In this document: piece by piece, positions 1,358-37,895 of the stretch
Layout of the letters: each line of letters opens with the position of its first letter
Numbering within the stretch: the first letter of the stretch is position 1
NCBI RefSeq assembly: GCF_900110865.1
Contig: NZ_FOFD01000006.1
Span: forward strand, 62,001-126,000
Direction of reading: 5' to 3'
Source of the DNA: Natrinema salaciae
Lineage (GTDB): Archaea; Halobacteriota; Halobacteria; Halobacteriales; Natrialbaceae
Length of the DNA stretch: 64,000 nucleotides
Notes under the pieces: model-generated
The model's database searches: none
What the model was told of the DNA's origin: nothing
Seen by the model: the letters and a program-made list of their open reading frames with translations, nothing else
Translations under genes and position numbers: made by a program

Positions 1358-3550
1358 ATGCAAGCAACCAAAACCCTCCCCGACGCCGCGAAAGACACCA
1401 TCCGAAGCAAGTTCGACCGCGCCGAGTCGTCAGACCCGATCGTCCTCTGGTGGGACGACGGGAACTACCTCGAGGACATCATCAAGCAGGCCTGTAACGA
1501 ACTCGGCGTTCAGCTGAAGGTCGCCGAGAAGACGCCGCTGGAACTCCGTGCCGATCCAGTTGACGGCGAGCAGGTCTGGTACGTCCCACACGTCAAGGAG
1601 CCCGAAGACGCCGATGGCGACTTCGACTGGTTCCGCGACGTCGAGCACACGGGCGGCGAGGTGCAGATGAGCATCGAAGACCTCACCGTCCACGCGTTCG
1701 AGCGCGGGCAACTCGATGCGTGGGAGCTGAAAACCGCGACGCAGGCGGACGACCCCGCGAAGCGCCGCGAGATCGCGCGGATTCTCCACGACCAGCTCAC
1801 CGGTGGACAGCTCCCGACGCTCGAACAGCTCCGCACGCAGATTGTCACCGGCGGCTACACCGACCCGGTCGCGTTCGTGCTGGAGAACGGCTGGGGCGAC
1901 ATCGACGACAGCCCCGACACTATCGAGCAGATGCAGGACTTGCTGACCAGCGAGGGTGTCGACGCGGTCGCTAGCGAGGACGAACCGGTGGGGATCGTCG
2001 CGGCGACGCGTCGGTGGGCCGTCGCCGAGTGGCTGATCCACGCCGGCGCCGACGCCGAACGCTTCCCGAGGGAGTTCCGCGCCGAGACGGCCGGCGATCA
2101 CGACCTCCCCGAACTCAAGTCGCTGTTGAACAACACCACCTCGGCCAGCCTCCTCGCCGACCGTTACCTCGGGGAGGCAATCTGGCCCGACGTCGTCGCG
2201 GACGTCGACGACCCATGGGAACTCGCGGAATGTATCGTCGACGCCGCGCTCGAACGCCGCCTCTGGGAGGAGTGGCACGCGTCCTTCGATGCCGGGGACT
2301 ACGAGGCGTGTCTCGAGCGTGCCGAGGAGCGATACGACGCTCTGCTCGGGAGCGAGGACTTCCGTGGCACCTATCGCGGAGCCTACGGCCCGGACAGCCC
2401 GTGGACGCAGACGTGGGAACAGGCCGCGGAGATCGCTCGCCTCGCGCACCAGCTCGAAACGTGGGACGAGAGCGCAACCGACGACGTCGTCTCGCTGTAC
2501 GCCGACCCCGACGACGGCACGTGGCAGATCGACAACGCGGTGCTCAACCTCGTCGTCGCCGGCGAGCCCGAGTCCGATCTCCCCGACGATCACCCCGCGA
2601 CCGCCGCGCTCGACGACCTCCGGACGCAGCTCCAGTCGGAATACGTCGAGTACCTCGAAGACCTCGGCGACCTCGTCACGGAGACCGTCGAAGCTGGTGC
2701 TCCGTTCGTCGACGAGGATCACTCCTACCAGTTCTTCACGAAGGAGTCCGACGGCCTCGAAAGCGGGCAGACGGTCGCGCTGTTCGTCATCGACGCCCTT
2801 CGACTCGATCTCGCTCGCCGGCTCGCGGACGAGTTGCGCGACTACGTGGCGACGCTCCCGGCCGACGCCCCCGAGTTCGCCGTCGATGAAGACGTCTGGC
2901 TCGGAACGCTTCCCTCGGAGACCGAGTTCGGGAAGGCTGCACTCACGCCGGGTGAGATCCAGATGTTTGGTGTCTCGCTGGTCGACGGCGAGTTACAGCC
3001 GCTGCGAAACAACCGTCGGGTGACGACTAACCGCCGCGAGTCGCTGTTGGGCGGTGACGGCTGGACGGTCACTCGCGAGGAGGACGACGGCTGGCAGTCG
3101 ACGCGTGTCGCCTACTTCAAGAACGACATCGACGACATCGGCGAGAAGGAACTCAGCGACCTCGAGGCGATGCTGGCCCGACGCGTCGACTCGCTCGCGG
3201 AGTTCATCGGCACGAAACTCGAACAGGGCGAGTGGGATCAGGCCTACGTGCTGACCGACCACGGGTTCGTCCTGCTCCCGGACAACGCGTCGCCGGAGAA
3301 GATTTCGCGCCCGGCGGAAGCATCCGACTCCGGGCGCCGATGGATCGCTGGGGAAGATGTGGACGAGGATTCGCCCGGCGTGCTACTCGACTCCAGTTCC
3401 CGACTGGGGTACCTCGACGCCAACGTCAGCGTCCTTGCGAGCCCACTCAAGCGGTTCAGAAAGCAGGGGCTCGGTGACGCGCGGTTCTACCACGGCGGAC
3501 TGCTCCCACAAGAGTTCGTACTTGACTTCATTAGCATCACCCAAGGGTGA
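1358..3550 (+). CDS. pglZ: PglZ-domain protein (BREX-like phosphatase-superfamily component)
   Basis: 730 aa. The C-terminal half holds the alkaline-phosphatase-superfamily PglZ signature: LFVIDALRLDLARRL near residue 475, with the metal-binding Asp, and AYVLTDHGF near 630, with a second Asp-His metal ligand. PglZ is the hallmark of Pgl/BREX phage-resistance systems, where it acts with a methyltransferase, ATPases and sometimes a helicase. Here it follows the OLD-like gene by 4 bases and precedes the membrane-anchored protein by 6 bases, so it is inside one operon. The length is near that of archaeal BREX PglZ proteins as I recall them. No BrxC or PglX is visible in the window; they could lie to the left or be absent. 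A long opposite-strand frame (1430-2722) is a high-GC shadow. Confidence 0.85.
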   Translation: MQATKTLPDAAKDTIRSKFDRAESSDPIVLWWDDGNYLEDIIKQACNELGVQLKVAEKTPLELRADPVDGEQVWYVPHVKEPEDADGDFDWFRDVEHTGGEVQMSIEDLTVHAFERGQLDAWELKTATQADDPAKRREIARILHDQLTGGQLPTLEQLRTQIVTGGYTDPVAFVLENGWGDIDDSPDTIEQMQDLLTSEGVDAVASEDEPVGIVAATRRWAVAEWLIHAGADAERFPREFRAETAGDHDLPELKSLLNNTTSASLLADRYLGEAIWPDVVADVDDPWELAECIVDAALERRLWEEWHASFDAGDYEACLERAEERYDALLGSEDFRGTYRGAYGPDSPWTQTWEQAAEIARLAHQLETWDESATDDVVSLYADPDDGTWQIDNAVLNLVVAGEPESDLPDDHPATAALDDLRTQLQSEYVEYLEDLGDLVTETVEAGAPFVDEDHSYQFFTKESDGLESGQTVALFVIDALRLDLARRLADELRDYVATLPADAPEFAVDEDVWLGTLPSETEFGKAALTPGEIQMFGVSLVDGELQPLRNNRRVTTNRRESLLGGDGWTVTREEDDGWQSTRVAYFKNDIDDIGEKELSDLEAMLARRVDSLAEFIGTKLEQGEWDQAYVLTDHGFVLLPDNASPEKISRPAEASDSGRRWIAGEDVDEDSPGVLLDSSSRLGYLDANVSVLASPLKRFRKQGLGDARFYHGGLLPQEFVLDFISITQG

Positions 3551-3556
3551 CCCACT

Positions 3557-4951: not shown

Positions 4952-5016
4952 CGAGCCAATCCACAACTAGTGACCTTCCGAGCGGCCGTCCTAATACAAG
5001 TGGAGAGACGCACTAA
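4948..5016 (+). CDS. 22-aa mini-ORF bridging two operon genes
   Basis: ATG at 4948 overlaps the upstream stop as ATGA, and its own TAA overlaps the helicase ATG as TAATG. The peptide MTSQSTTSDLPSGRPNTSGE ends two residues later. The double overlap implies termination-reinitiation coupling through the whole stretch. It could be a translational bridge that keeps helicase output tied to the upstream gene, or the remains of a deleted gene. No known domain. Confidence 0.45.
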   Translation: MTSQSTTSDLPSGRPNTSGETH

Positions 5017-7931
5017 TGAGCGAATCTCAATTTCGTCCGGGTGAGAGAATCATAATCGATGGGAAGGATGCGGAAGTTATACGTATTCAAACAGTCGGTG
5101 ACATCGAGTACCTGCGAGCCTATATCGAAGGGGAAGGCGCCAAAACCGTTTGTCTGGATGACGTCGAGATTCAGCCCTCTCAGAGTGGAATCGAGAGGAT
5201 TTCCGATCACCAACTCGACGCCCTTCATCCTGATCACGATACGGTCTCGGCGCAGTGGTTCGACCTCCACACGCAGGCGACGAAACTCAAGTTCGCCCAC
5301 GAGCAGGGACAGCTCCTGAGCATCTCGAACTCACTCGTTCGACTGGAGCCCTACCAGCTAGATGCCGTGAACTGGGTGATGCAGAAGCTTCGGCAGCGTG
5401 CGCTCATCGGCGACGACGTCGGGCTCGGGAAAACGATAGAGGCCGGACTCATCCTCAAGGAACTCGCCGCCCGGAATCGCGCCGACCGCGTCCTGTTCGT
5501 CGTTCCCGCTCATCTCCAAAAGAAGTGGATTCGGGATATGGATCGCTTCTTCGACGTCGATCTCACAGTCGCAGATCGGGCGTGGGTCGAAGGTGAGCGC
5601 CGACGGCTCGGCGAGGAGGCCAACATCTGGAACCAAGACCAGCAACAGCTTGTCACCAGCATGGCGTTCCTGCGACAGGACGAGTTCCGACCCGCACTCC
5701 GGGACGCGTTCTGGGACGTCGTCGTGGTCGACGAGGCACACAAGGCTGCCAAGCGGGGTGACTCGCCGAGCAAGACGGCAAACATGGTCGATACCGTCAC
5801 GGGGAACTCCGACTCGCTGCTGCTTCTCAGCGCGACGCCCCACGACGGGAAGGGCGAGGCGTTCCGCTCCCTTGTCGAGTATATCGACCCGTTCCTCGTC
5901 GCCGAGAACCGGGAACTCTCACAAGAGACAGTCGACCGCGTAATGATCCGACGTGGGAAGACCGACATCTACGACGAGGATGGTGAACGTGTCTTCCCAG
6001 ACCGAGAGGTCAACTCGGTATCGGTCTCGATGACGCACGACGAGCGGCAGTTCTACCGCGCGGTCACTGACTACGTCAAAAACGTCTACAACCGCTCGGA
6101 GAAGTTGAACGAACCCGCGGTCGGGTTCGCGATGGCGCTCATGCAGAAACGGCTGGTGAGCAGCGTCGGCGCGATTCACGCGACGCTCCGCCGACGACTG
6201 GATGACCTCCTCGACGAGGAGGCGGAAACGGACGGGCTCTCCGAGGAAGCACGAGCCTATCTCGACGGCGAGGATCTGGACGAGGACGACAAGCAACACG
6301 CGGAAGACGAGATTGCTGGCCTGACCGTCACCAGCACCGACGAACAGCTCCAAGAGGAGATCGATACGCTCCGCGATCTCGTCTCACTGGCCGAGGATTT
6401 GCCGGTCGACTCTAAGGCCCAGAAGGTCAGACGGTTCATCTCCCAACTCCTCGAGGAACAACCGGACGAGAAACTCCTGTTGTTCACGGAGTACCGCGAT
6501 ACGCTCGACTACCTCCTCGAGTACGTGCAGGACGAGCCGTGGGCGGACGAGATTCTCGTGATTCACGGTGACGTGGATAAGGAGGAACGGGCGCGGATCG
6601 AAGACGAGTTCAATCACGGCCAGTCACGGCTCCTGTTTGCGACCGACGCAGCGAGCGAGGGGATCGACCTCCAGCACAGCTGCCACATCATGGCCAACTA
6701 CGAGCTTCCGTGGAACCCGAACCGCCTCGAGCAGCGGATCGGCCGCATCCATCGCTACGGACAGGAGGAGGAGGTCAAGGTCTGGAACTTCCTCTTCGAC
6801 GACACCCGCGAGAGCGAGATCTTCGAGATGCTCCAAACCAAGGTCGAGGAGATCCGCTCCCAGCTCGGAAATACGGCGGACGTGCTCGGCATCCTCGACG
6901 ACATCGACGTGGACTCGCTCATCATGGAGTCCATCGAGAACGACGAACCCCCGAGTGCGACCAAAGAGGAACTCAAGGAGATGATCGAGGAGCGCCAGCG
7001 GACGCTCGAGGAATGGTACGAGCGGAGCCTCGTCGATACGAGCACGTTCGATGCCGAGAGTCGCCGGCAGATTCAGGAGGTCGTCGACGAGTCAGAGGAT
7101 GTCTACGGGAGCGAGGGCGACATTCGCGAGTTCTTCGAACGAGCAGTCGAAGCCTTCGGAGGCGAATTCGAGAAGCGCGGCACCAATCTCTATCAGGCCG
7201 AGTTGCCGGACGGGATCAATTCACCGGGGCAAGATGCGACGTTCGGCCCGTTCACGTTCGACCGCGACTTCGCGATGGATCACGAGGACATCACCTACCT
7301 CGCTCCCGACACGGACGTCCTGCAACGGCTCATGGCACGCGTGTTGGAGGATGAGCGTGGTGAGGTCGGACTCAAACTGCTTCCGTTCGTCGATACGCCG
7401 GGTATCACCTACAACTATCGTGTGGCGTTTGAGGACGGCACCGGCGACGTGATTCGCGAGGAGACCATCCCCGTCTTCGTGGATGCCGCGCAAGAGGACG
7501 CCCAGCAGGCGCTCGGTGAACGTGTTGTCGAGGGCGACTCGGTAGCAGCAAAGCCCGACGTCGACGACCTGCGAACGGTTCTCGACGCTCAATCCGACTT
7601 ACGAACGGCTGCCGATCGGTATGTCAGCGTGCGGGTCAACGAGATCAAGAACCATCTTCAGGAGAAGCGCCACGAGGAGACCGCTCGGGAACTGGAGAAT
7701 CTCGAGGAATACGCGCAGGCGGAACGAGAACGGATCGAGTCCTTCATCGAGGAATACGAGCGCAAGGCCGACGCCGGCTCGGATATGGACATCGCGATCC
7801 GTGGCCAACAGGAGCGTCTCGAACAGCTCGAGGACAGAATCGAAACGCGTCGCGAAGAACTCCGACGTCGAGAGCAGATCATCTCCCTTGCGCCCGAGGT
7901 CGAGAACTACTGTCTCACACTACCGCTATAG
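5016..7931 (+). CDS. SNF2/DEAH-type helicase (BrxHII/DrmD-like)
   Basis: 971 aa. Motif I GDDVGLGKTIEAGL lies near residue 131, motif II VVVVDEAHKA near 238, motif III LLLSATPHDGKG near 270, motif V FATDAASEGIDLQ near 539 and motif VI QRIGRIHRYGQ near 572. This is a complete two-lobe SF2 ATPase of the RapA/SNF2 type with a long helical C-terminal region. Large helicases of this kind are paired with PglZ in some BREX types (BrxHII) and with methyltransferases in DISARM (DrmD). Position at the 3' end of the pglZ operon suggests a remodelling or translocating role in defence. The gene is convergent with the next one (18 bases between stops). Assignment to a named defence family is inference. Confidence 0.85.
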   Translation: MSESQFRPGERIIIDGKDAEVIRIQTVGDIEYLRAYIEGEGAKTVCLDDVEIQPSQSGIERISDHQLDALHPDHDTVSAQWFDLHTQATKLKFAHEQGQLLSISNSLVRLEPYQLDAVNWVMQKLRQRALIGDDVGLGKTIEAGLILKELAARNRADRVLFVVPAHLQKKWIRDMDRFFDVDLTVADRAWVEGERRRLGEEANIWNQDQQQLVTSMAFLRQDEFRPALRDAFWDVVVVDEAHKAAKRGDSPSKTANMVDTVTGNSDSLLLLSATPHDGKGEAFRSLVEYIDPFLVAENRELSQETVDRVMIRRGKTDIYDEDGERVFPDREVNSVSVSMTHDERQFYRAVTDYVKNVYNRSEKLNEPAVGFAMALMQKRLVSSVGAIHATLRRRLDDLLDEEAETDGLSEEARAYLDGEDLDEDDKQHAEDEIAGLTVTSTDEQLQEEIDTLRDLVSLAEDLPVDSKAQKVRRFISQLLEEQPDEKLLLFTEYRDTLDYLLEYVQDEPWADEILVIHGDVDKEERARIEDEFNHGQSRLLFATDAASEGIDLQHSCHIMANYELPWNPNRLEQRIGRIHRYGQEEEVKVWNFLFDDTRESEIFEMLQTKVEEIRSQLGNTADVLGILDDIDVDSLIMESIENDEPPSATKEELKEMIEERQRTLEEWYERSLVDTSTFDAESRRQIQEVVDESEDVYGSEGDIREFFERAVEAFGGEFEKRGTNLYQAELPDGINSPGQDATFGPFTFDRDFAMDHEDITYLAPDTDVLQRLMARVLEDERGEVGLKLLPFVDTPGITYNYRVAFEDGTGDVIREETIPVFVDAAQEDAQQALGERVVEGDSVAAKPDVDDLRTVLDAQSDLRTAADRYVSVRVNEIKNHLQEKRHEETARELENLEEYAQAERERIESFIEEYERKADAGSDMDIAIRGQQERLEQLEDRIETRREELRRREQIISLAPEVENYCLTLPL

Positions 7932-13722: not shown

Positions 13723-14316
13723 ATGACCACACAGGAGGGGTGTAAGGTTGAGCGCGTCACCGAGAAATACGGACTTGACGACGCCGACGAACGACTGCTA
13801 CGCCTGCGAGACCACGAAGGAGCCGGCCTCCGTCGCCTCGAGACGCGACTCAATATATGGATTATCAAGTACGCGATGATCCAGCACGGGATGACTGTTC
13901 TCGACGGCGAGGAGGAGAACTATCACCGCTTGCTTACAGACGACAGCGTATTGGAAGGTGCCCGTCGTGATGGTCGCCGCGAACTTGAGGAGGCTGGTAT
14001 CGATGTCGACGAGGTTACGGACGACTTCGTTTCCTACCAGACCATCCGCAAGCACCTCAACAAGTGCCTTGGCGAGGATACCAGCCGCAACTACACTCCG
14101 AATCCACAGAACGATCAGCAGAATATCGAAAAACTACGGAAGCGAGTTGTCAACGTCGTTGAGAAGTCTATCAACCGTCTCCGAAACCACGACATCATCC
14201 AGATGGGTACGCCGCACGTCCGAGTGTCGATCAAAGTCAAGTGCGGTGACTGTGGCCGAACGCACATGCTTAGGAGCCTGTTTGAGAGCCGCGAATGCCC
14301 GTGTGCCACCGACTAA
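13723..14316 (+). CDS. RdfA-family protein (rod-determining factor homologue)
   Basis: 197 aa. The N-terminus GCKVERVTEKYGLDDADERL and the block HRLLTDDSVLEGARRDGRREL match the haloarchaeal RdfA family as I know it. RdfA is needed for rod shape in Haloferax and is thought to be a regulator. The C-terminus adds a small zinc-binding region, KVKCGDCGRTHMLRSLFESR, ending with CPC. Paralogues of this family are common on haloarchaeal plasmids and proviruses, so a regulatory role for the element is at least as likely as one in cell shape. Confidence 0.7.
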   Translation: MTTQEGCKVERVTEKYGLDDADERLLRLRDHEGAGLRRLETRLNIWIIKYAMIQHGMTVLDGEEENYHRLLTDDSVLEGARRDGRRELEEAGIDVDEVTDDFVSYQTIRKHLNKCLGEDTSRNYTPNPQNDQQNIEKLRKRVVNVVEKSINRLRNHDIIQMGTPHVRVSIKVKCGDCGRTHMLRSLFESRECPCATD

Positions 14317-14577
14317 TCGGAACCTGCTACCGAATGCGAGTCTACGACAACCTGTCACTGAGTGCGGGTAATAAGAGTCCCGCTCAGTAGATTCAATCCA
14401 CGCGTTAACCTGATGTACAAGTCCGGTGGCGTAACTGTATTCATCCTCTCTCGCGAGCAAGAAAAGCGAATCGCTGATGTCGACAGCGAACCCTGCATAA
14501 ATGCCCACTACTATACACAATTTGAAAATTTTATATGATTGATAGTATTTTGGGAGCTGGGAACGATATGTGTTCCC

Positions 14578-15534
14578 GTGCTATCGAAATACCTACTAGA
14601 TCGGTATAGCGAGGACGAACCGTTCCTCAAAGCCCTGCTCATCGGCTATATTGATTCAGAACTATTCGCACAATCCGTCCCAGAAACTGACCTCTCCGCC
14701 TACATCTCCGACTCCAAGCACGAGCGCCCCATCCTGTCCGCCCGAAGCATTACGGACGCCATTGACTGGTACTCACTACCCGACGATCACCCGTTCTCCC
14801 CAGATTCAAACGGTGACGGGTTCACACCCGATGAGTGGCAGCTCGTCCGCGAATTCAGTCGAATTCGGGGTAGCACTGCTCACGGCCTCCACTCCGCATT
14901 GGGTGCCGAGGAGGCGGCCGACGTGCTCGACAGTGAACTTGCCGCCCTTGAAGACGTCGAGAATCCCGACGCCATGCTCAAAGCCGTCTACCGCTGGCCG
15001 GGCGCAAACCGTGTTAAGTCGCCTGAAGAGGCCGAGGTACTTGATAGGAGTGCCACCGATGCTCTCAAAACCACCGCCAAACGCGGCGCGCGTTTCGCCG
15101 GCGACAACTGGGACATCATCAACCGTGAACACGAAATGACCGTACTCGTCGATGAGCCAACCATCCCCGAAGAGGTCGACGGTGTGCCGTTTTGCCCGTG
15201 TCCAGACGAAGTCGTCAGTATCCCCGACTCCGACGCGCTCCCACCGGCAATCTACACGGTCGATGGCAAGACTGGCCCGCACATCAAGCCTGCCCACATT
15301 GTGCAGGCCGAGGCACAACGCCGTGCGCTCGACGAGCGGCTCCACGCCCCTGTCCACGGGCTGATTCTCCGCCTCGGCGACGAGCGCGGCGATTGGGACA
15401 TCCTCGCCAGCACTGACGACGGTTGGCCCACCGACAAAGCGTGGGAGCTATTCCAGCGTAAGGCAGAGCAATTGTACGATGACGAATACGTGCAGGCGCG
15501 ACTCGAACAGATGCACCGTGTCGACGGCCGCTAA
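14578..15534 (+). CDS. Hypothetical protein with a possible PD-(D/E)XK-type nuclease core
   Basis: 318 aa from the GTG at 14578. An in-frame TTG at 14539 would add 13 residues, but the AT-rich TATA-like stretch at 14529-14536 sits too close to it. Residues about 220-255 read AIYTVDGKTGPHIKPAHIVQ followed by AEAQRRAL, which resembles the DxK and Q-containing helix of PD-(D/E)XK nucleases of the RecB/Cas4 type. The upstream CPCPDEV could hold the first acidic residue. The N-terminal half is unassigned. The nuclease reading is inference from one motif block. Confidence 0.6.
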   Translation: MLSKYLLDRYSEDEPFLKALLIGYIDSELFAQSVPETDLSAYISDSKHERPILSARSITDAIDWYSLPDDHPFSPDSNGDGFTPDEWQLVREFSRIRGSTAHGLHSALGAEEAADVLDSELAALEDVENPDAMLKAVYRWPGANRVKSPEEAEVLDRSATDALKTTAKRGARFAGDNWDIINREHEMTVLVDEPTIPEEVDGVPFCPCPDEVVSIPDSDALPPAIYTVDGKTGPHIKPAHIVQAEAQRRALDERLHAPVHGLILRLGDERGDWDILASTDDGWPTDKAWELFQRKAEQLYDDEYVQARLEQMHRVDGR

Positions 15535-15545: not shown

Positions 15546-15564
15546 CCACCCCTGAACGGGGTGG
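15546..15564. repeat. Perfect 7-bp-stem hairpin after the 15534 stop
   Basis: CCACCCC (15546-15552), loop TGAAC, GGGGTGG (15558-15564). It lies 12 bases after the upstream stop. It could end transcription without a T-run or be the subterminal hairpin of a lost IS200/IS605-type element, whose haloarchaeal ends carry similar GC hairpins. Confidence 0.35.
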
Positions 15565-15575
15565 ACTTCTGCTCG

Positions 15576-15830
15576 CTACGTGCTAAGCGTGCTTTCTGGC
15601 GATTTGAGCCGCCACCGGTTGCTGTGGAGGGAGATCGATGCCTGTTCACCGCCTCCATTCCCGACAACCACGACAGTTTGTCCCTCAACGGCGGTCACGT
15701 AGATGTGATGTCCGGTTTCATCGACAGCGAGTTCGACGTGTTCACCTTCGGCGAGCGATTCGCGGTCGACTTCTTCGATGCACGGAGGCATTACCAACGC
15801 GGTCGAGCAGCAGTCGGGATAAGGATCCAT
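15576..15830 (-). CDS. Small hypothetical protein, divergent from the zinc-ribbon pair
   Basis: 84 aa, acidic, with three Cys near the N-terminus (MDPYPDCCSTALVMPPCIEE) and a beta-like centre (GHHIYVTAVEGQTVVVVGNG). Its ATG lies about 31 bases from a TTTATCTAAT box (15857-15866) that also serves the divergent gene at 15891. This spacing supports a leaderless start. No family recognised. Confidence 0.45.
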   Translation of the reverse strand: MDPYPDCCSTALVMPPCIEEVDRESLAEGEHVELAVDETGHHIYVTAVEGQTVVVVGNGGGEQASISLHSNRWRLKSPESTLST

Positions 15831-15856
15831 GTGCAGCGGCAGCCGGCGTGCCGGCG

Positions 15857-15866
15857 TTTATCTAAT
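15857..15866. promoter_or_regulatory. Shared AT box for divergent leaderless genes
   Basis: TTTATCTAAT sits about 30 bases from both the minus-strand ATG at 15830 and the plus-strand ATG at 15891. It reads as a TATA element in either direction. Confidence 0.45.
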
Positions 15867-15890
15867 CCCCCGGATGTCGATCATTCCGTG

Positions 15891-16109
15891 ATGGCAACGA
15901 TCACCGACACCTGCGACGCGTGCGATGTGGAACAGAAGTGGACTGTCGAACACAACCTCAGAAATGCTGACTGCAATGCGTGTGGGACGCGACACATTAT
16001 CTCACTCAGCGAGCAAGAGGCGTTCGAACACGAGAAGAAGTCCGAAACGGAGCGACAGGAGATGTTTGACAAACTGCGGAAGTGGGACGAAGAGGAGGTG
16101 GGCGTGTAA
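15891..16109 (+). CDS. Small zinc-ribbon protein
   Basis: 72 aa. A CDAC plus CNAC pair (residues about 8-34) makes a CxxC...CxxC zinc ribbon, followed by a charged helix (EAFEHEKKSETERQEMFDKL). The frame is open further upstream, but the ATG at 15891 is favoured because it lies about 30 bases after a TATA box. The stop overlaps the next ATG as TAATG. Probably a DNA-binding or adaptor protein of the mobile module. Confidence 0.65.
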   Translation: MATITDTCDACDVEQKWTVEHNLRNADCNACGTRHIISLSEQEAFEHEKKSETERQEMFDKLRKWDEEEVGV

Positions 16110-16736: not shown

Positions 16737-17708
16737 ATGGCCGCGGCGGCCGTGGATAGCAGTATGCTCGACGACCCTCCCGACATCGGCCCTGACAGAA
16801 AGTGGCCCGACGACTGGTCTCCAGAGGAACGCGTCGAAGCAATCGCCGATATGCTACACCAGCCTCGGGACGCCGACTGGGTCGCCGCCGAGGCTGACGT
16901 TGACCCCGCGTTCGCTCGCTCGATGCTTGCCGAACTGGCCGAGTTAGATGATACATTCATCCGCGTCGACGAAGGATACTGTTGGGACGAACGAAAACTG
17001 CGCCAGCAGAAGCGTGAACATCTCGCGGAGAAACCAGCCGCCGAACTGCGCGAGGAACTGAACCGAATCAACGACGAAATCGCCGGGTGGCGCGACCAGT
17101 TCGACGCCGACAGCCCCGACGAGGTCGATGACTCTCGAGTCGCGTATGACTGGCGCCACTCTCGCTACCTGCGGAGGATGATTCGCGGTCTGCTCGCAGA
17201 CGATGCATTCCTCAAGGCCGTTGGTGCCGTCGCGTGCGGCTATGAGTCGCTGCCCGAAGCCGCCGACAGACGAGGGGTCGACGCAGAAGACGTCGCCCGC
17301 GCTCTCAGCCGCCACCAGCACCGTGAGGATTACTCGGGTCGGCTCTGGGCAGATCGTCGATCCGACGACACGGACGACATCAACGAGCAACCAGACTACT
17401 CAGACACACGGTGGTCGGATGATGACAGCACGCTCGACGTGCGGTCAGCGGAGGAGATTGCGCGAGCGAACGGCGTTGACGTTGAGGTCGTCGAGGAATC
17501 CATCGAGGCGATGTCGGAGCAGGAGCAGGCAATAATCGATGACCGTATCGAGGAGATTGAGGACGACACTCGCCACCACTCAACCGAAGATGTCGCTGAC
17601 GATCTCGGGATAGACCTCGGCGATCGCGTCACGGAACTCGATAACGAGGAAGCACTCGAAGACATCAACGACCTTCTCGATGATCTCCCGGACGAGGAGA
17701 AAGGCTGA
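16737..17708 (+). CDS. Winged-helix-type regulator with long acidic C-terminus
   Basis: 323 aa. Residues about 26-60 (WSPEERVEAIADMLHQPRDA, then DWVAAEADVDPAFARSM) match the N-terminal helix-turn-helix of many haloarchaeal winged-helix regulators. A coiled-coil follows (EELNRINDEIAGWRDQF). A second HTH-like segment near residue 165 (YESLPEAADRRGVDAEDVAR) and a third near 245 (RSAEEIARANGVDVEVVEES) suggest several DNA-binding units, like a sigma-type or replication-control protein. The start at 16737 could instead be ATG 16764. It lies just upstream of the origin-like repeats. Confidence 0.65.
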   Translation: MAAAAVDSSMLDDPPDIGPDRKWPDDWSPEERVEAIADMLHQPRDADWVAAEADVDPAFARSMLAELAELDDTFIRVDEGYCWDERKLRQQKREHLAEKPAAELREELNRINDEIAGWRDQFDADSPDEVDDSRVAYDWRHSRYLRRMIRGLLADDAFLKAVGAVACGYESLPEAADRRGVDAEDVARALSRHQHREDYSGRLWADRRSDDTDDINEQPDYSDTRWSDDDSTLDVRSAEEIARANGVDVEVVEESIEAMSEQEQAIIDDRIEEIEDDTRHHSTEDVADDLGIDLGDRVTELDNEEALEDINDLLDDLPDEEKG

Positions 17709-17752
17709 ATCAGACACGATGACTATCTGCTGCTGGCGAAGACGCGATACCC

Positions 17753-18014
17753 CACACCCCCTCGAGTTCCGATGTAAACCGCCCCACTGAACGGCGACCC
17801 TCGGTTACGCATACACACCCCTCGGTTCCAATGAACGAGCCGGGGACACCTCACTTCTTGAATGTAAAACCAGCAGATAGAGAACCTCACACCCCCCTTG
17901 ACTTCCGATGTGAAATCACCCTACGGAACGTCGATTTCCGATCACACGCACACACCCCTCGGTTCCGATGAACGGATCGGAGGGAGACACCCCACCTCTT
18001 GAATGTAAAACCAG
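17753..18014 (+). repeat. Tandem array of four ORB-like repeats in two ~138-bp units
   Basis: Copies of a motif of the form CACACCCCTCGGTTCCGATG occur at 17753-17778, 17814-17836, 17888-17915 and 17951-17973. Each pair is followed by a second conserved block (GACACC..., TTGAATGTAAAACCAG) at 17845-17873 and 17986-18014. Spacings of 135, 137 and 141 bases define an imperfect tandem duplication. Read on the minus strand the motif is TTCATCGGAACCGAGGGGTG, which resembles the haloarchaeal origin recognition box bound by Orc1/Cdc6, including its G-string. Confidence 0.7.
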
Positions 18015-18036
18015 AAAATACGGAGCCTACAAGCCC

Positions 18037-18798
18037 TCAATCCTCTCCCCACGTCCACTCTCGGAACTTCCGACTGACCTTCTCGTGCCGCTTCTCATCT
18101 GGGCCATTCCTCGCTACAACGCTACGGATTTTGCCCCGCACGTCCATCCACGGTAACTGCTGTCCGTCATCGTGGTCTCGAGCGTTAGTGATCCAACTGC
18201 CGACTGTCCACGCCCACGCCTCCTCTGCGATTTTCTTCGTCTTCTTCGACCGCTCTTCGTTTGCCTCTACCCTCTTACCCAACTCCTTGACTTTCTCACG
18301 GAGTTCCTCGTTCTCCTTTTCCAACTCCTTCACGCGTTCACGCCACTGTCCGAACTCGGACTTGAGGTTACCACGCTCATCCTCTGCTTCATCTTCGACA
18401 GCCTCAACTGATTCTTCGAGGTCGGATTGGTTGTCCCGAATCTCGTCGAGGAGATCGCGGACAAGACCCATTTCCTTATTCATCTCTCGGGCGGCATCGA
18501 GCACCTCTTCTCGGAGTGCGTAATGTGCGAGGTCACTCCACTGGTCGCTCACGTACCGGTGTCCCTCTGTTGTGAGCTTGAACACTCGAACGTCATTACC
18601 AGCGTGCGGGCGCGTTCCGCACTGCTTGACGAGCCCTGCGGGTGCGAGCCACTCGTCGATTCTGTGCTTGATGAGACGCGGCTTCCCACCGGTCATCTCT
18701 TTCAAATCGGTCGTACTACATCGACCGCGTTTGAACAGCGCAGTAAGTGTCTTCTCAGCGAGGAGATCCATTTTCTCCGGTTCCTCGTACCTCGCCAT
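18037..18798 (-). CDS. Winged-helix plus coiled-coil protein, possible replication protein
   Basis: 253 aa. Residues 1-85 form a winged helix (LLAEKTLTALFKRGRCSTTD then LKEMTGGKPRLIKHRIDEWL). Residues about 95-190 form a long coiled coil (VKELEKENEELREKVKELGK), followed by a basic tail. It is flanked by ORB-like repeats in opposite orientation (17753-18014 and 19162-19272). This is the typical layout of a haloarchaeal plasmid or proviral origin with its initiator or control gene. Role as initiator, repressor or partition factor is inferred from position only. Confidence 0.7.
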   Translation of the reverse strand: MARYEEPEKMDLLAEKTLTALFKRGRCSTTDLKEMTGGKPRLIKHRIDEWLAPAGLVKQCGTRPHAGNDVRVFKLTTEGHRYVSDQWSDLAHYALREEVLDAAREMNKEMGLVRDLLDEIRDNQSDLEESVEAVEDEAEDERGNLKSEFGQWRERVKELEKENEELREKVKELGKRVEANEERSKKTKKIAEEAWAWTVGSWITNARDHDDGQQLPWMDVRGKIRSVVARNGPDEKRHEKVSRKFREWTWGED

Positions 18799-19161
18799 AT
18801 TCGTATTGTTTAGTTGTCACTAAAGCGGTAAGAACCCCTCGGGACAGGGGTGGGAATGTTCGGCCTTAGGCGGAATATTTCGGGGGTTGATTCTGAGGGT
18901 ATTCGGCCTAACCGGAACGCCGTCCGAATACCGCATGCGGGTACCCCTTCCAGTAGTTGCTCCCGGGACGCATGCCCCATCGAAGCGACAAGGGGCGCTC
19001 AGCCGCCGCGCCCCTATGAACCCCCGGCACCAACGTGTTGGTGAGTTGTGAATTCTGGCAACGAGGGCTCCTGAGCAGACCTGAGAAGTTTTCCGAAGTA
19101 CAGACCCACAACGACGAGAGAATCATTCCTTGGCGGAGGAGTTTCCCCGCTACGAAGGCGA

Positions 19162-19272
19162 GTTTCATCAGAACCGAGGGGGGTGGGGGGTGTGTAAACT
19201 CCACCCGAACTAAGGGGGTCTCCATCGGTTTTGGCGGTGTCGAGCTTTCATTCAAGACTTGGGGTGTCCCCC
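19162..19272 (-). repeat. Inverted counterpart of the ORB-like array
   Basis: GTTTCATCAGAACCGAGGGG (19162 onward) is the ORB-like motif in the opposite orientation to the 17.8-kb array. The second conserved block recurs at 19245-19272 (CTTTCATTCAAGACTTGGGG onward). With the left array it brackets the 18037 gene. Confidence 0.65.
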
Positions 19273-19316
19273 GCGTTGCAACAAGATCACTCCTACTTCT
19301 TCCTAGATTGGATTCG

Positions 19317-20211: not shown

Positions 20212-22782
20212 GTGTCATTCAAACGGTCTCGTTCTATCGACTCTCTCTATGACGCTGTTGCAGACTACGATCTGGTTTTGACGACTGATGCGCCACTCAG
20301 TCATGCCCTGAATCGCCGACTCGATCGTCCACACCTCGGTCGCTTCGCGGCCACCCCACGGATGCTCGCGTCCGGCGAGTTTGACCCGCAAGACGATCGA
20401 AATCTGTTTTTGCGTCTCATCGACGAAACGGATCTGAGTTACAAGCACGCCGCCTATCTCCTCGAGAACATTCTCGGTTGTTGGGAGGAAACTGGAGACC
20501 TGCGCGCGATTCTCGACTACGACCGATTCGATAGCGAGGAGACGCGTCAAGCTATTTCGGTAATCGAGTCCGCCGAGAGTTCCCATCGAGACCTCGCCGA
20601 GTATCGCATCGAGGATGGAACGTCGGTCGCGGTCATCGGCGAGAAGCAGTTCACGGCGCTCGACAAGTCGGTACTCCCGGACTCCTACGACGCGATCGAT
20701 CCGTTTGCTGACGACGAGTTCGACCTGCCGGAGTTTCACGTCTTCGACGGCCCGACCGCGATCGTCGACGCCATCGTCGAAAACGTCTCGCCGGACACCG
20801 CCGACGACGTCGCCATCATCATGGACAGCGGCGGGGAGTATCCCGCCCTCGTCGAATCCGCGTTCGAGGCGGCTGGCATCCCTTTCTACGGCGGGCCGGG
20901 ATTCACCGACGACGAGACCATCCGTACGTACCTCCGGTTGCTGCGCACGGCGCACAGCGATTCGCGGGCACGCGTCAGCGACGTTCGACCGATCCTCACC
21001 CATCTCGGTCGTCCGCCATCCGTCGTCGACGACGAGAAGTTCCTCCACGAACTCGACCACGAGGATCTCCGTCCACTGCAAGAGTTTTGTCGCACCATCG
21101 ACGACGACACGTTTGGCGAGACGGTGGCCATGTTCGAAGACTGGAGTGGGAAGACGCTGGACGCGTTCCACGAGGAACTGCGGGTACTCGGACTACACGA
21201 TGATCGGGTGACGAGCGACTCGATCGATGACCTCGAGTTCTACCTCCAGTCGTTCGACGTGCCTGTCGACCGCGACGACTCGGGCGTACTGCTGGCCGAT
21301 GCCACCGCCGCGGCCTACGTCGACCGTCCGGTCGTGTTCTACCTCGGGATGGATGTGGACTGGACGCATCGGATTCTTGACCGCCCGTGGATCGACGCCG
21401 ACGCGAAGGACGAGCAGTACCTTCGACAGTTCCAAATTCTCCTCCAGAACGGTCGCGACCAGTACTATCTGGTACAGGAGACGAGCGCCGGCCAGCCCGT
21501 CACACCGTGTCTCTACTTCCACGACCTCCTCGACGACGACTTCGAGACGATCGGAGACCTGCCGCATATCCCCCACACTCGCCTCAGTAGTAACGGCGAC
21601 TCCGGCTTCGAGAAGGAGGATGTCGATGTCGCGCCAAGCGAGATCGATGTAGTCAGCCAGTCGAGCCTGAACACGTTCGTCAACTGCCCGCGGGACTACT
21701 ACTTCGACAGGATCGTCGACAACCCCGACCGAGACTACTTCCAGAAGGGGAATCTCTTCCACGACTACGCCGAGTTCTACGTCAATTACCCCGATGTAGT
21801 CGAAGGCGCCGACCGCTCGGAGCTGGTCGATCTGATGCTGGCGGAGATGCGACCATACATCCCCGATGTTGAACTGGAACCGCTGGAGTCCGAGTTCGAA
21901 ATCGGCCTCGACACGATCGAGGAGTTCGTCGCCGCTGATCCACCTACCGACCGGGAGTACAGCCACTACGAACAGAAGGAGGGAGACAACTTCTTCGCCG
22001 ACCACTTCGAGAAGTCGATCGACTCACCCATCACCGAACGGTGGTTCGAGAATCCCCAACTCGGCGGCAAGGGCAAAGTTGACCTGATACACGCGCCGGA
22101 AACGCTCCTTGACTACAAGAGCGGCGGCCGCAAGTCGGCGTCCAAGGTCGTCTCACGGTCGGACATCGAAGAGATTAGCGACGAGCCCGACTTCCAAGCA
22201 CTGCTCTACCTCGCCCACCATCGGCAGGAGCATCCGGATGAGCGCCTCGAGTTCGTCTTCTTCCACTTTCTGGAATTGGTCGACGATGTCGTCGCCGGAG
22301 AGCCGGATCTCGAGGATGCACTCGTCCGAGTCACCTACCACCCGATGCCGTTCGGAACGTATGCCGGCAGTCGCGAGGCATTCGATGCGCTCTGCGATGG
22401 CGTCGCGGAGAGCAACGACCGGCGGAAGACGCTGGAGCGGTTGGGGTACGACGCGTACGTATCCTTCTTCCAGCGATACGACTTCCCAGAGACCGACGAC
22501 ACCGACGAACTGCTCGCCACCGACTTCGCGGCCCGCTTCACCGAGTACGCAAAAGCGGAGGTCGGAGACTACGTCTACGTCGAAGACGGTACCGAGAGCG
22601 CGCTCAAGAAGCTCGTGCGGATTCGCGGTCGCAACTACTTCGAGGGCGAGGTCGACGCCTTCGAGGACTTTCTCGACGCACAGGTCGACCGTATCAACCA
22701 GTATCGCGCGTCGCAGTTCCCCGTCGGGGAACCGAACTTCGACCGAGTCACCCATCACGACCTGATCCGAACCGATGACTGA
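20212..22782 (+). CDS. AddB-like inactivated helicase with PD-(D/E)XK nuclease
   Basis: 856 aa with a GTG start. There is no Walker A, as expected for an AddB-type inactivated helicase fold. Middle blocks such as DDVAIIMDSGGEYPALVESA match the UvrD-like scaffold. The C-terminal nuclease shows SLNTFVNCPRDYYF near 483 and GKGKVDLIHAPETLLDYKSG near 622, with D and DxK catalytic residues. Only one of the Cys typical of AddB Fe-S clusters is obvious, so the cluster may be missing. Its stop overlaps the AddA-like start (ATGACTGA), so the two form an operon and probably a heterodimeric end-processing nuclease. Confidence 0.8.
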   Translation: MSFKRSRSIDSLYDAVADYDLVLTTDAPLSHALNRRLDRPHLGRFAATPRMLASGEFDPQDDRNLFLRLIDETDLSYKHAAYLLENILGCWEETGDLRAILDYDRFDSEETRQAISVIESAESSHRDLAEYRIEDGTSVAVIGEKQFTALDKSVLPDSYDAIDPFADDEFDLPEFHVFDGPTAIVDAIVENVSPDTADDVAIIMDSGGEYPALVESAFEAAGIPFYGGPGFTDDETIRTYLRLLRTAHSDSRARVSDVRPILTHLGRPPSVVDDEKFLHELDHEDLRPLQEFCRTIDDDTFGETVAMFEDWSGKTLDAFHEELRVLGLHDDRVTSDSIDDLEFYLQSFDVPVDRDDSGVLLADATAAAYVDRPVVFYLGMDVDWTHRILDRPWIDADAKDEQYLRQFQILLQNGRDQYYLVQETSAGQPVTPCLYFHDLLDDDFETIGDLPHIPHTRLSSNGDSGFEKEDVDVAPSEIDVVSQSSLNTFVNCPRDYYFDRIVDNPDRDYFQKGNLFHDYAEFYVNYPDVVEGADRSELVDLMLAEMRPYIPDVELEPLESEFEIGLDTIEEFVAADPPTDREYSHYEQKEGDNFFADHFEKSIDSPITERWFENPQLGGKGKVDLIHAPETLLDYKSGGRKSASKVVSRSDIEEISDEPDFQALLYLAHHRQEHPDERLEFVFFHFLELVDDVVAGEPDLEDALVRVTYHPMPFGTYAGSREAFDALCDGVAESNDRRKTLERLGYDAYVSFFQRYDFPETDDTDELLATDFAARFTEYAKAEVGDYVYVEDGTESALKKLVRIRGRNYFEGEVDAFEDFLDAQVDRINQYRASQFPVGEPNFDRVTHHDLIRTDD

Positions 22783-25654
22783 GTACGAGCCAAACGAGCG
22801 ACAGCAAGAACTGATTGACGCGACGAGCGGCATCCACGTCGTCGACGCCGGCGCCGGAACTGGCAAGACCTTCACCATCACTCGCCGCTACGCGAACCTC
22901 CTCGAACAGGGAGACGTCGAACCAGAGGACATCCTCCTGATCACATTCACGAACAACGCTGCGGGCGAGATGAAGGAACGCGTCGTGGCCAACTGCGACT
23001 ACTCGATGTCCGCGTTACGGGACGCACCCATCAACACGTTCCACGGGTACTGCCACGACCTGCTCATCCGCCACGGGTTCGACGCGCCGACGCGTCTCGG
23101 CATCGACGACCGAATCACGTCGTCGACGCAGCTCCTCGAGAACGAAGTCATCGAGGAAGATCGCTTCCGCGAGTTCCTCGACCAGTTCATCGAGGCACAT
23201 CCCGAGTATCACGACTACTTCAGGACGCTCAACAACGCGACATCGCTCCTCGATCTGATTAAGGAGCTCGCCGCCAAGGGAGTGTTCCCGACCGACGAGG
23301 GCTGGTTCCGCGATGGTGAGTCCTTCCTCGATGGCGACTACGAGGAGTTCAAGACGCTCTTCGATGAGGCCAACGAGCCGAACGAGGGCGCGAACGGCGC
23401 GACTCAATCGGACTTGCGCGACGGTCTGAGCGGGTTCGAGCGCGATCGCTGCTACGAGCCAGACGCCCCTAGCGAGAACGACCTCCGGGACGGCTATCCG
23501 CAAATCGACGACGCGTGGGCCAGTCGAGCGTTTGACGAAGATCGTGACAACCTGAAGGCGTTCGTCCACGACGTCTACCTCGAGTACATCGCGTTCGCGC
23601 TCCAGCGGAACTACCTGAACTTCAGTTTCCTGCTGATGTTCACCTTCGCGATGCTCTGCGAGGATCACTCGCTGCGGGAGTCGGTTCAGTTCGACCACGT
23701 GCTCGTCGACGAGTTTCAGGACACGAGCGAGATTCAGTTCAAACTCGCGCTATTGCTCACGGGCACGGATAACCTCTGTGTCGTCGGCGACTGGAAGCAG
23801 AGCATCTACGGGTTCCAGTACGCATCGGTCGACAACATCCGACGCTTCGAGGAGCGTCTCCAGACCTACAAGCGGGAGCTCAATGGCGACTACGTGCGGG
23901 TCGACTTCCCGGTCGACGACGTGAACGAGATCTCGCTGGTCGAGAACTACCGCTCGACACAGTCCATCCTCGATTTCTCCGAACATAGCCTCACGCTGCC
24001 CGCGACGGGAAGCGAGGAGATCGGCCCGGAGATACAGGACGACATCACATCGCTAGCAGCGATAACTGAACACGACCACAGCAACATCGAGGCGTTCACG
24101 TGCGATGACGAGCAGGAGGCGATTCTGACGCGGATACAGGAGATCGTTGGCAATCGCGAGTACGCCGTCGAGGACGATGGCGAACTTCGAGCGCCGACGT
24201 ACGACGACGTTGCGGTGTTGACCCGGACGCGTGACTTCGGGCGCGAGTTACAGGCGTGTGCCGCAGACTACGGGATTCCCGTGGCTTACGAAGGCGGCGT
24301 CGAGCTGTTCGGAACCGAGCAGTCGATTCTCCTGCTCGCGTGGCTACGCATCCTTGAACACGAGGACTCCAAGCGCGGCTGGGCAGTCGTCCTCGAAGAG
24401 GCTGGCTATACGCTTGACGAGGTGAAGCACGTCCTCGAGAACAGTACGTATCCCACGGGTATGGTCGAGTTCCGTGACCAGCTCGCGGAGGCGGAGACCA
24501 TCGGCGGAACCGCGCGACGGGTGTTCGATCGATACGGGTTCGACGACGCGTATGCGGATGGGCTCGTCTCGCTGTTACAGGGCACCTTCGACAGCACCCA
24601 CCACAACCGCGGAGACATCGTGCGATTCCTCGAACGGAGTCTCGACGCCGGTGCCACCCACGAGGTCGAGGACAACCCCGGCGGCGACTCGGTAACGGTG
24701 CAGACCATTCACGCCGCCAAGGGCCTCGAACATCCCATCGTCATCATGGCGAACATGAACCAGCACCGGTTCCCGCCGTCCGGTGGTGGCGCGGATCGGA
24801 TTCGGTACGAGGAGACGGTCGGTCTCCGACAGAGCAAGCGATACACCGATGCGCACGGTCGTCCCCATCTCTACGATAACTGGCGGTATCGGATTCTCTC
24901 GAAATGTCTGGGCCGAGAGTACGACGAGGAACGGAGGCTGCTGTACGTCGCCATCACGCGTGCAGAGAGCCACGTACTGTTCTCCGCCGGAGAGTCGCCG
25001 AGCCCGCTCTTCGAAAACCTCCCGCTCGAGCCGTCGACGGTCGAGCCGGACGTCGAGGCCGCCGCTGTTGGCGGGACGGAGCAGACGCAACTCCAGATTT
25101 CGGTACCGGTTCCTGAGACGCCGTCCGGCCAGTCCCCTCATTCGCTGATGGACGATCGCGTATTCAGCGACGTGGAGGACGGGAAGGGGATGGAGTTCGG
25201 TACACGCGTCCACGAGTTCGCCGAACGATACGCAGTGGGAGAGGCAGTCGAGCCTACCAGCCCCGACGAGCGAAACGTGCAGACGCTCCTCGATTCGCTG
25301 CCCGGCGAGTTCCGGGTTGAGGAGAACGTCTACCTCCCGTTGTCGGTTGATGGGCAGCAGGTGACGATCTCCGGAATCGTCGATCTGCTTCACGTGACCG
25401 ACGACTGGGTCGAAATCATGGACTACAAAACCGACCGTGGCCGCCACGCGGAAGCCGAGTACCGGAAGCAGTTGAGCGTCTACTACCATGTCGTCCGGCA
25501 GGAATACCCCGATCGCCGTGTCTCGACGAGCATCTACTATACCGCTGACGGCGAACGAGTCGAGATTGATCCGCTGCTACTGGAGGAACTCGGGGAACTT
25601 GTCGATGTCGACGAAACGCACGAAGAACGCGGGGAAGATCCCCTAATTCGGTGA
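22775..25654 (+). CDS. AddA/UvrD-like helicase with C-terminal PD-(D/E)XK nuclease
   Basis: 959 aa. SF1 motifs are complete: AGAGTGKTFT (residue 24), LITFTNNAAGEMKERV (motif Ia), VLVDEFQDTS (motif II, near 310), VVGDWKQSIYGFQY (III), ENYRSTQSILDF (IV), VTVQTIHAAKGLEHP (V, near 640) and LLYVAITRAESH (VI). The C-terminal nuclease carries GIVDLLHV and MDYKTDRG (near 868-886). It overlaps the AddB-like gene by 8 bases. Such pairs resect DNA ends in repair and degrade foreign DNA. Within this accessory region a defence or element-maintenance role is plausible. Confidence 0.88.
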   Translation: MTEYEPNERQQELIDATSGIHVVDAGAGTGKTFTITRRYANLLEQGDVEPEDILLITFTNNAAGEMKERVVANCDYSMSALRDAPINTFHGYCHDLLIRHGFDAPTRLGIDDRITSSTQLLENEVIEEDRFREFLDQFIEAHPEYHDYFRTLNNATSLLDLIKELAAKGVFPTDEGWFRDGESFLDGDYEEFKTLFDEANEPNEGANGATQSDLRDGLSGFERDRCYEPDAPSENDLRDGYPQIDDAWASRAFDEDRDNLKAFVHDVYLEYIAFALQRNYLNFSFLLMFTFAMLCEDHSLRESVQFDHVLVDEFQDTSEIQFKLALLLTGTDNLCVVGDWKQSIYGFQYASVDNIRRFEERLQTYKRELNGDYVRVDFPVDDVNEISLVENYRSTQSILDFSEHSLTLPATGSEEIGPEIQDDITSLAAITEHDHSNIEAFTCDDEQEAILTRIQEIVGNREYAVEDDGELRAPTYDDVAVLTRTRDFGRELQACAADYGIPVAYEGGVELFGTEQSILLLAWLRILEHEDSKRGWAVVLEEAGYTLDEVKHVLENSTYPTGMVEFRDQLAEAETIGGTARRVFDRYGFDDAYADGLVSLLQGTFDSTHHNRGDIVRFLERSLDAGATHEVEDNPGGDSVTVQTIHAAKGLEHPIVIMANMNQHRFPPSGGGADRIRYEETVGLRQSKRYTDAHGRPHLYDNWRYRILSKCLGREYDEERRLLYVAITRAESHVLFSAGESPSPLFENLPLEPSTVEPDVEAAAVGGTEQTQLQISVPVPETPSGQSPHSLMDDRVFSDVEDGKGMEFGTRVHEFAERYAVGEAVEPTSPDERNVQTLLDSLPGEFRVEENVYLPLSVDGQQVTISGIVDLLHVTDDWVEIMDYKTDRGRHAEAEYRKQLSVYYHVVRQEYPDRRVSTSIYYTADGERVEIDPLLLEELGELVDVDETHEERGEDPLIR

Positions 25655-28137: not shown

Positions 28138-30135
28138 ATGTCTTCTCAAGCTGACCCGATGACCGACGAATTGGACAACGACGACTATCGGTTGAGACGA
28201 CTTTTCGACGGGTACGTCTTCCATATCCCGGATTATCAGCGGTTCTACTCGTGGTCGACGCAAGAGTGCGAAGATCTCTGGGATGACCTTCTCAACGTCA
28301 TCGACGAGGCGAACCGCCACTACATGGGAACGGTCATCCTCAAAGACGAGGCCAAGGCCATCGAGACGCGTGGATATGGAGAAGGGTACCGTGAGTACGC
28401 GATTGTTGACGGCCAGCAGCGATTCACCACTTTAACGATTCTGATGAAGGCTATCGTTTCAGCCTTTGACGAACTCGAACGATCGATGATCGACGTTGAC
28501 GACGAGATTTACGAAGACGTCGAGGACGCGGTCGAGGATGCCCGCTCGCTGTTCGTCCGGGATAGCAGTATTCAAGACGACCGTTACGGTGCCCAGAACA
28601 AGCTCCGTCTTCAGCGCGAAGACAACGACGTGTTCAAAGCCATTCTACGAGAGGAGGTTGTCGACGAAGACATTTCGAAGCCATCCGAGCAACGGCTGGT
28701 CGATGCATACGGCTTCTTCGAAGACCAGCTTGACGACCTTAAAGAAAGTCGCGCTTCGGACGCCGCTTTCCTCGATGACATCGGACGGCTTCTCTCGAAC
28801 ATCCAGTCGCTCGAGTTCATGGTTTACGTCGTTGATAGTCAGGCACGAGCGACGCTGATCTTCGAGTCGGTTAATGACCGTGGTAAAGATCTGAGTCGGC
28901 TGGACAAGACGAAGAGCTTCCTGATGCACAAACACTACCTGATCCAGTCAGAGGAGGAAGGTGACGTTGCAGGGCGGGACATCAGGGATCGATTCGGACG
29001 CATCTATCGGTCGATGCAGACCATCGAGATGCAGGATCGAACGTCGGGGATTAGCGAGGATCAGGTGCAGCAGTACCACTATATCGCCAAAGTACCGCGA
29101 TCAGTCAACAAAACATACCTCGATGAAGAGACGGGTCGCCGGCGCACACTCCAAAGTGGGGCTCCGATCTATCTGGACGTTCTCAAGTGGCATTTCAATC
29201 GCCTCTATGATGACGTCGCAGAGTCTCCACACGACGAGCATCCACGAGACTGTCTGGAAGAAATCGATTGGTACACGCGTAGCCTCCGCCGGTACTACTC
29301 GCGACTGGCCACGATTGCAGAGTACGACGATGACGAAGAAATCGGCTGGGAACTCTCCAAGCTCTTTGCCCTCGGCCGAATGGGTAACTTCTATCCACTC
29401 CTACTCACCGTTTGGGACGAGTACGAGTCAGGGAATATCGACCGAGACGAGCTGCACGAAGTTTTACAGATGATTGAGGTCGCCTCATTTCGCATTTACG
29501 CCATCGGGAACAAACGATCCGACACTGGCCGTTCTACATTCTATCGGCTCGCGAATCGAGTTGCGAACGGCAACGCCGGTGTCGAGGACATCATCTCCGA
29601 ACTGGAAAATGCGGTCGAACGATACGAGACCGACTTCGAGCAGGCTCTTCGAAACGACGGCGCGTACTCCGTCTTCTCGAATCGGGATCTCCGGTATCTG
29701 CTCTACTCCTACGACCTGTACGTCCGTCATAAGAACCGCGGCGGGGCACCCCCCGAAATCGAGAAGGCCGTTCAGAATGCTGGCAAGGACTACAGCCTCG
29801 ACCACGTCTGGCCACAGGATACCAGTGAACTTGACCTCGATGACGGTGAATACGAGGCCCACGAGGAGCTAGTCGATAACCTCGGTAATCTCACACTCAC
29901 TACGGGCCGGCGAAACGCTGCGTGGAAGAATGATTCCTATGACAACAAGCGGACGGACGACCGATACAGGGACTCAGACTTCGCCTCGACACGGAAATTA
30001 GCCCGTGAATACGAATCGTGGGGGCAATCTTCTGTCGAAAGCCGTCTTGACGATCTGATCGAGTACGCGGCTCAGCGATGGAGTCTGGACTCCGACGAAC
30101 GGCAGGAGTACGCTGCGATCAAACCGCCTTCGTAG
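28138..30135 (+). CDS. DUF262/DUF1524 (GmrSD-type) restriction protein
   Basis: 665 aa. The N-terminal DUF262 shows IPDYQRFYSWSTQECEDLWD (near 30) and AIVDGQQRFTTLTILM (near 88), a ParB-like nucleotide-binding core with the DGQQR motif. The C-terminal DUF1524 HNH-type nuclease shows SLDHVWPQD near 555, then NLGNLTLTTGRRNAAWKNDS. This matches single-chain GmrSD-like type IV enzymes that attack modified phage DNA, and BrxU-like partners found with BREX. It stands as a probable single-gene defence unit in the element. Confidence 0.88.
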   Translation: MSSQADPMTDELDNDDYRLRRLFDGYVFHIPDYQRFYSWSTQECEDLWDDLLNVIDEANRHYMGTVILKDEAKAIETRGYGEGYREYAIVDGQQRFTTLTILMKAIVSAFDELERSMIDVDDEIYEDVEDAVEDARSLFVRDSSIQDDRYGAQNKLRLQREDNDVFKAILREEVVDEDISKPSEQRLVDAYGFFEDQLDDLKESRASDAAFLDDIGRLLSNIQSLEFMVYVVDSQARATLIFESVNDRGKDLSRLDKTKSFLMHKHYLIQSEEEGDVAGRDIRDRFGRIYRSMQTIEMQDRTSGISEDQVQQYHYIAKVPRSVNKTYLDEETGRRRTLQSGAPIYLDVLKWHFNRLYDDVAESPHDEHPRDCLEEIDWYTRSLRRYYSRLATIAEYDDDEEIGWELSKLFALGRMGNFYPLLLTVWDEYESGNIDRDELHEVLQMIEVASFRIYAIGNKRSDTGRSTFYRLANRVANGNAGVEDIISELENAVERYETDFEQALRNDGAYSVFSNRDLRYLLYSYDLYVRHKNRGGAPPEIEKAVQNAGKDYSLDHVWPQDTSELDLDDGEYEAHEELVDNLGNLTLTTGRRNAAWKNDSYDNKRTDDRYRDSDFASTRKLAREYESWGQSSVESRLDDLIEYAAQRWSLDSDERQEYAAIKPPS

Positions 30136-37732: not shown

Positions 37733-37749
37733 AGCTGTATTTGTCCTGA

Positions 37750-37885: not shown

Positions 37886-37895
37886 AGAATTGGGA

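Follow-up and report, generated by a model that had tools for sequence, protein, structure and literature searches.

An array of eight clustered ORB-class boxes lies at 17753-19272 of the window, i.e. the whole 64-kb stretch of DNA analysed here, within an integrated element. No Orc1/Cdc6 gene was detected on the entire contig (C6) with the TIGR02928 and PF09079 profiles, which extends the observation of an earlier note on this DNA that no orthodox Orc1/Cdc6 gene is adjacent. Judging from the sequence, the region may be an Orc1-type origin, or an origin-derived Orc1-binding region, that is served by host Orc1 in trans, a reading that we hold with about as much confidence as doubt. A host-supplied Orc1/Cdc6 protein would read the eight boxes and load MCM after the element has been excised and circularised. 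The protein encoded between the boxes would be a DNA-binding protein particular to the element, of repressor, copy-control or partition type, acting at its own operator at about 18857-18911. Host Orc1 binding, origin activity and excision are, like the role of this protein, what we infer from the arrangement.

That the array sits in an integrated element had been claimed in the earlier note and is borne out by the boundaries, an empty site and base composition. The 71.5-kb element resides in a tRNA-His gene (37893..37968, minus strand), its integration target, and ends in an exact 43-bp repeat of this gene. One copy, attR (37895..37937), lies within tRNA-His and the other, attL (C6:28399-28441), left of the window at a distance of 71,496 bp. 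The tyrosine recombinase gene abutting tRNA-His (36614..37936, minus strand; PF00589) encodes the element's integrase. The empty site is seen in other species of the genus (L137, L142), where left and right flank meet at tRNA-His. The direct att repeat at a tRNA gene, the integrase gene and the empty site, all three present, identify an integrative mobile element, whose GC content is 57.3% as compared to 64.7% and 66.9% on either side. Short tRNA-His fragments accompany the intact tRNA-His in several species of the genus, as if this gene were a repeatedly used integration site.

The boxes are arranged around gene 18037-18798 on the minus strand. To its left, 17753-18030 consists of two tandem units of about 138 bp (spacing 137-141 bp), each comprising a pair of A-type boxes, ACACCCCTCGGTTCCRATGAAC and a longer form, and a single B-type box (ACACCCCACCTCTTGAATGTAA). 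The order on the plus strand is A1 (ACACCCCCTCGAGTTCCGATGTAA, 17754..17777), A2 (ACACCCCTCGGTTCCAATGAAC, 17815..17836), B1 (ACACCTCACTTCTTGAATGTAA, 17846..17867), A3 (ACACCCCCCTTGACTTCCGATGTGAA, 17889..17914), A4 (ACACCCCTCGGTTCCGATGAAC, 17952..17973) and B2 (ACACCCCACCTCTTGAATGTAA, 17987..18008), i.e. six ORB-class sites. A3 is degenerate; it is the tandem unit's second copy of A1 (repeat family D5) and is conserved in G010, a genome of another genus. To the right, the minus strand carries two inverted boxes, A5 (19163..19186) and B3 (ACACCCCAAGTCTTGAATGAAA, 19246..19267), in repeat copies at 19163-19186 and 19246-19272. Both box types are inverted across the gene, which lies between inverted boxes about 1.15 kb apart. 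Motif CCCCTCGGTTCCRATGAA, with up to three mismatches, has 4 matches in 64 kb versus 0.14 in shuffled sequence, and motif ACACCCCACNTCTTGAATGTAA has 3 versus 0.00. Tandem ORB-like motifs left of the gene and an inverted copy to its right, as described in the earlier note, are confirmed by the repeats and these counts. Its tally of four motifs plus a second shared block was correct as to the repeats and too low as to the sites, since the block is itself of ORB form (G-string, core and TGWAA). The inventory likewise held for the left and right sets and missed one lone A-type site, A6 (34309..34331, plus strand), which is conserved in G010 and G243. This site follows gene 33857, which it also adjoins in both of those genomes, and is distant from the main array.

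To compare the boxes with known ORBs, as the earlier note had suggested, we used a weight matrix trained on seven Orc1-linked repeat families of this genome and G010, with the element left out. Five element sites (17754, 17987, 17815, 19246 and 17952) take ranks 1 to 5 of 275,940 scored positions (138 kb), in a comparison that is not fully blind and open to some bias, since the families were picked by eye with the element's motif already known. A1 has the best score (19.1 bits). The sites at 34309, 17846 and 19163 are likewise among the matrix top 13, which includes eight element sites, and in G010 the four best matrix sites all fall in the homologous region. A2, A4 and B2 were recognised by both motif match and matrix, B1 additionally by its ORB form, A5 by repeat analysis and matrix, and B3 by all three of repeat, motif and matrix. 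Because the Orc1-trained matrix places five of them first in 138 kb, the repeats are classed as ORBs by sequence, and they have the form ACACC-N-TGWAA in common with the Orc1-linked repeats L002, L003, L006 and L007. G-string-bearing ORB repeats, a mark of orc/cdc6-adjacent haloarchaeal origins, are present; in oriC1 of Haloarcula hispanica the G-strings are essential. Across 392 genomes, the A box (up to two mismatches) occurred 19 times among the matches listed versus twice with a reversed-pattern control, and the B box (up to one mismatch) 18 times versus none. The A box also matched one viral contig (L148), with no array around it; this match was taken as chance.

The layout recurs in a different genus and also in a different family. 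G010 contains the element in mosaic form, with the complete array layout at 89% DNA identity, and no Orc1 was detected near its copy of the array. In G323, which belongs to another family, the gene order is a 14539-like gene, a 15561-like gene, a gene whose product shares the tail of the element's DUF7342 protein, two A boxes, a winged-helix (wHTH)/coiled-coil gene and inverted A and B boxes. The corresponding genes of the element, all on the plus strand, encode a 331-aa protein (14539..15534), whose C-terminal third matches the gene at the same position in G323, a 182-aa protein (15561..16109) found in the same module in G323 and G324, and the DUF7342 protein adjoining the ORBs (16737..17708), whose C-terminal tail is conserved at the same position in G323. 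DUF7342 was dismissed as an ORB-linked protein, nearly all homologous loci inspected being devoid of an ORB cluster. Four direct A boxes in G324 and one in G013 lie near a wHTH/coiled-coil gene. Other arrays have no wHTH gene: G300 and G155 have B boxes as inverted pairs, G226 has them in arrays split over two contigs, and in G338 an inverted A array surrounds a nuclease-like gene. At the loci in G300, G155 and G226 (L167, L168 and L170), the B-type arrays flank small uncharacterised genes in low-GC stretches, adjoined by HerA, Mrr-type or AddB-like genes.

Two properties count against an origin. The interval between the inverted boxes has no clear AT-rich stretch for unwinding, its minimum GC content in 60 bp being 0.47; a lower-GC stretch (0.38) at 19401 is located outside the inverted boxes and is not common to G010. 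Moreover, ORBs and spacers are conserved to the same degree, 87%, when this genome is compared to G010. Both properties would suit boxes that bind host Orc1 without being an origin, serving initiator titration or copy-number control, or remaining from a decayed origin whose orc1 was lost or replaced, while the element is copied passively with the chromosome. Cdc6-titrating ORB-rich regions have been described in Haloarcula hispanica (PMC3936714), and on some true plasmids (L175, L176) orc1 is situated shortly upstream of the AddB-UvrD genes, where the array is found here. However, the paired inverted layout is kept in every complete array (this element, G010, G323, G300, G155 and G338), with inner inverted boxes 1.08-1.22 kb apart. 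As this spacing of about 1.1-1.2 kb is maintained around different inner genes, the arrangement seems to be under selection, and we regard Orc1 binding without origin function as rather unlikely.

The gene between the inverted boxes (18037..18798, minus strand) encodes P0001, a 253-aa protein with a winged helix and a long coiled coil that is likely an accessory or regulatory DNA-binding protein. Its predicted fold comprises the winged helix, a helix from residue 77 to 208 and two C-terminal helices; confidence in the wHTH domain is modest (pLDDT about 60-80). Comparison of this domain with solved structures gave no sequence match to a known initiator, and no homologues of P0001 were found in genome-contig, viral-contig, plasmid and phage collections. 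The intergenic region 18799..19162 is 90% conserved in G010. Upstream of the gene, at 18857-18911, it contains repeated TATTCGGCCTAA-like half-sites, also conserved in G010, which from their sequence are a candidate operator of the 18037 gene.

According to the earlier note, the 18037 product might be a novel initiator. Such a protein would read the boxes itself, comparable to WhiP at Sulfolobus oriC3, an earlier case of a captured element with a wHTH initiator (PMC4010727). In line with this, the gene is located between inverted arrays in both the element and G010, an analogous protein takes its place in G323, and the wHTH domain is 98% identical to that of the G010 homologue, as compared to 89% for the whole protein. 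The wider comparison nevertheless speaks for a different reader. Near-identical A boxes occur beside wHTH proteins without significant BLAST similarity to one another (this element, G324 and G323/G013), and the inverted arrays of G300, G155 and G338 have no such gene. Conversely, the nearest relatives of P0001 besides G010, in G130 and G181, have no A box beside the gene, B boxes being found elsewhere on those contigs. Furthermore, the gene is preceded by its own candidate operator, and Sulfolobus oriC3 has no ORBs (PMC4010727). More distant P0001-like wHTH proteins (L028, L053-L057) were discarded as array partners, as no ORB cluster was found at them. Since further Orc1-less inverted arrays do without such a protein, P0001 is probably not the ORB reader, and we consider its role as an initiator improbable. 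A conserved host factor fits the pattern of boxes and wHTH proteins better than a local wHTH protein, and the near-identical A boxes beside unrelated proteins, the arrays without them and the G130/G181 genes without A boxes favour recruitment of host Orc1.

Haloarchaeal genomes contain many Orc1 genes and origins, and this genome has 25 TIGR02928 matches, ten of them above the cut-off on their own. None of its Orc1-linked repeats is close to A or B; the best reach 19/24, for the oriC1 boxes as nearest match to A, and 20/27. Within the family, no A box with up to two mismatches was found at Orc1 genes among the loci inspected. An order-level search revealed a box differing from A by two mismatches (CACACCTCGTTTCCGATGAAC) at the oriC1-type Orc1 locus L125 and an A-like box at another Orc1 locus, L118. 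In two haloarchaea, the initiator gene was not required in cis for ARS activity (PMC4010727). Strict specificity, by which origins depend on their co-located cdc6, has also been reported (PMC3936714) and, together with the missing close Orc1-linked repeat in the host, counts against the use of a host Orc1 in trans. A very divergent initiator might conceivably be encoded within the element itself.

The fold of P0001 raises another explanation, namely that the winged-helix protein binds the array as a centromere, a partition site or an operator of nearby defence operons, and that the likeness to ORBs arose by convergence. Among PDB structures, the wHTH domain is closest to AspA, the centromere protein of pNOB8 (TM 0.79 on target), followed by MarR repressors, and at several loci the arrays are near helicase-nuclease, HerA or restriction genes. 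However, these fold matches, obtained with a predicted model, are generic. The boxes fit the matrix of Orc1-linked repeats including the G-string, and no ParA was recognised among the genes scanned. We therefore give this possibility little credence.

The element carries defence genes as cargo. A BREX type 5 system that looks complete (BrxA-like, two BrxC, BrxB, PglX-like methylase, PglZ and BrxHII) extends over C6:43777-61167, left of the window, and 1358-7931. It includes PglZ (1358..3550) and the BREX helicase BrxHII (5016..7931), both on the plus strand; a DrmD match suggestive of DISARM was outscored by BrxHII. A GmrSD-like restriction enzyme (28138..30135, plus strand) and an OLD-type ATPase are also among the cargo; the GmrSD-type gene falls where the element and its G010 version diverge, a case of cargo exchange. 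An RdfA family protein (13723..14316, plus strand; PF21811) is encoded upstream of the array, and RdfA is also found near the 18037 homologues in G130 and G181. Downstream, also on the plus strand, an AddB-like PD-(D/E)XK protein (20212..22782) and its partner, a UvrD helicase-nuclease (22775..25654), form a pair that adjoins B boxes in G226 and G300, the AddB-like protein being 70% identical in G226. On haloarchaeal plasmids this pair (20212-25654) is repeatedly found next to or near BREX genes and, from this gene order, may be a BREX companion. In the plasmid regions with the pair that we inspected, BREX genes were frequent and orc1 was nearby in only three of eight, and this synteny was not counted as proof.

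A small AAA-type ATPase, P0003 (31266..32207, plus strand), matches PF13401 just under the cut-off and is weakly Orc1-like. It was rejected as a hidden Orc1: hhalign against the Orc1 profile gave 52% probability in the P-loop region only, the structural model was unusable (pLDDT 42) and no such array was seen at the loci of Halorubrum relatives. The protein is 74% identical in Halorubrum and Halorhabdus, and on two plasmids (L176, L180) its gene and AddB are divergent.

The comparison of these loci leads us to propose, with more doubt than conviction, that a family of defence-carrying haloarchaeal elements replicates from Orc1-less A/B arrays, inverted about 1.2 kb apart, by borrowing host Orc1/Cdc6 and combining the arrays with exchangeable wHTH/coiled-coil regulators. 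If true, ORB arrays on Orc1-less mobile elements would mean that host initiators are usable in trans, which would help to explain the spread of large defence islands (BREX-5, helicase-nucleases, GmrSD) between haloarchaeal genera. The array offers a concrete, testable 1.6-kb fragment (17700-19300).

Among known systems, the array most resembles the haloarchaeal orc/cdc6-adjacent origins, i.e. oriC1 and its relatives (PMC3528665, PMC3936714), with which it shares G-string ORBs, inverted copies flanking a gene, intergenic location and a setting in variable or mobile DNA. It differs from them in having no orc1/cdc6 adjacent or detected on the contig, two box types per array and no clear AT-rich stretch between the inverted boxes. 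As at the WhiP-dependent oriC3 of Sulfolobus (PMC4010727), a putative origin carried by captured extrachromosomal DNA is accompanied by a winged-helix gene. In contrast to oriC3, which is devoid of ORBs (PMC4010727), the array has ORB-class boxes. For the 18037 protein, no resemblance to known initiators was detected, and protein and boxes are not conserved as a set. Pleolipovirus HHPV4 carries predicted ORB-like sequences on a haloarchaeal mobile genome (PMC5867852), but it is a small virus genome for which the cited excerpt describes no tandem array or similar layout. The BREX-5 plasmids Halorhabdus tiamatea pHTIA and that of Halococcus dombrowskii share BREX-5 and the AddB-like/UvrD pair with the element, the AddB-like protein of pHTIA being 62.5% and its PglZ 96.5% identical. 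Whereas these plasmids are free circular replicons, of a kind in which orc1 can accompany the pair, the element is integrated and Orc1-less.
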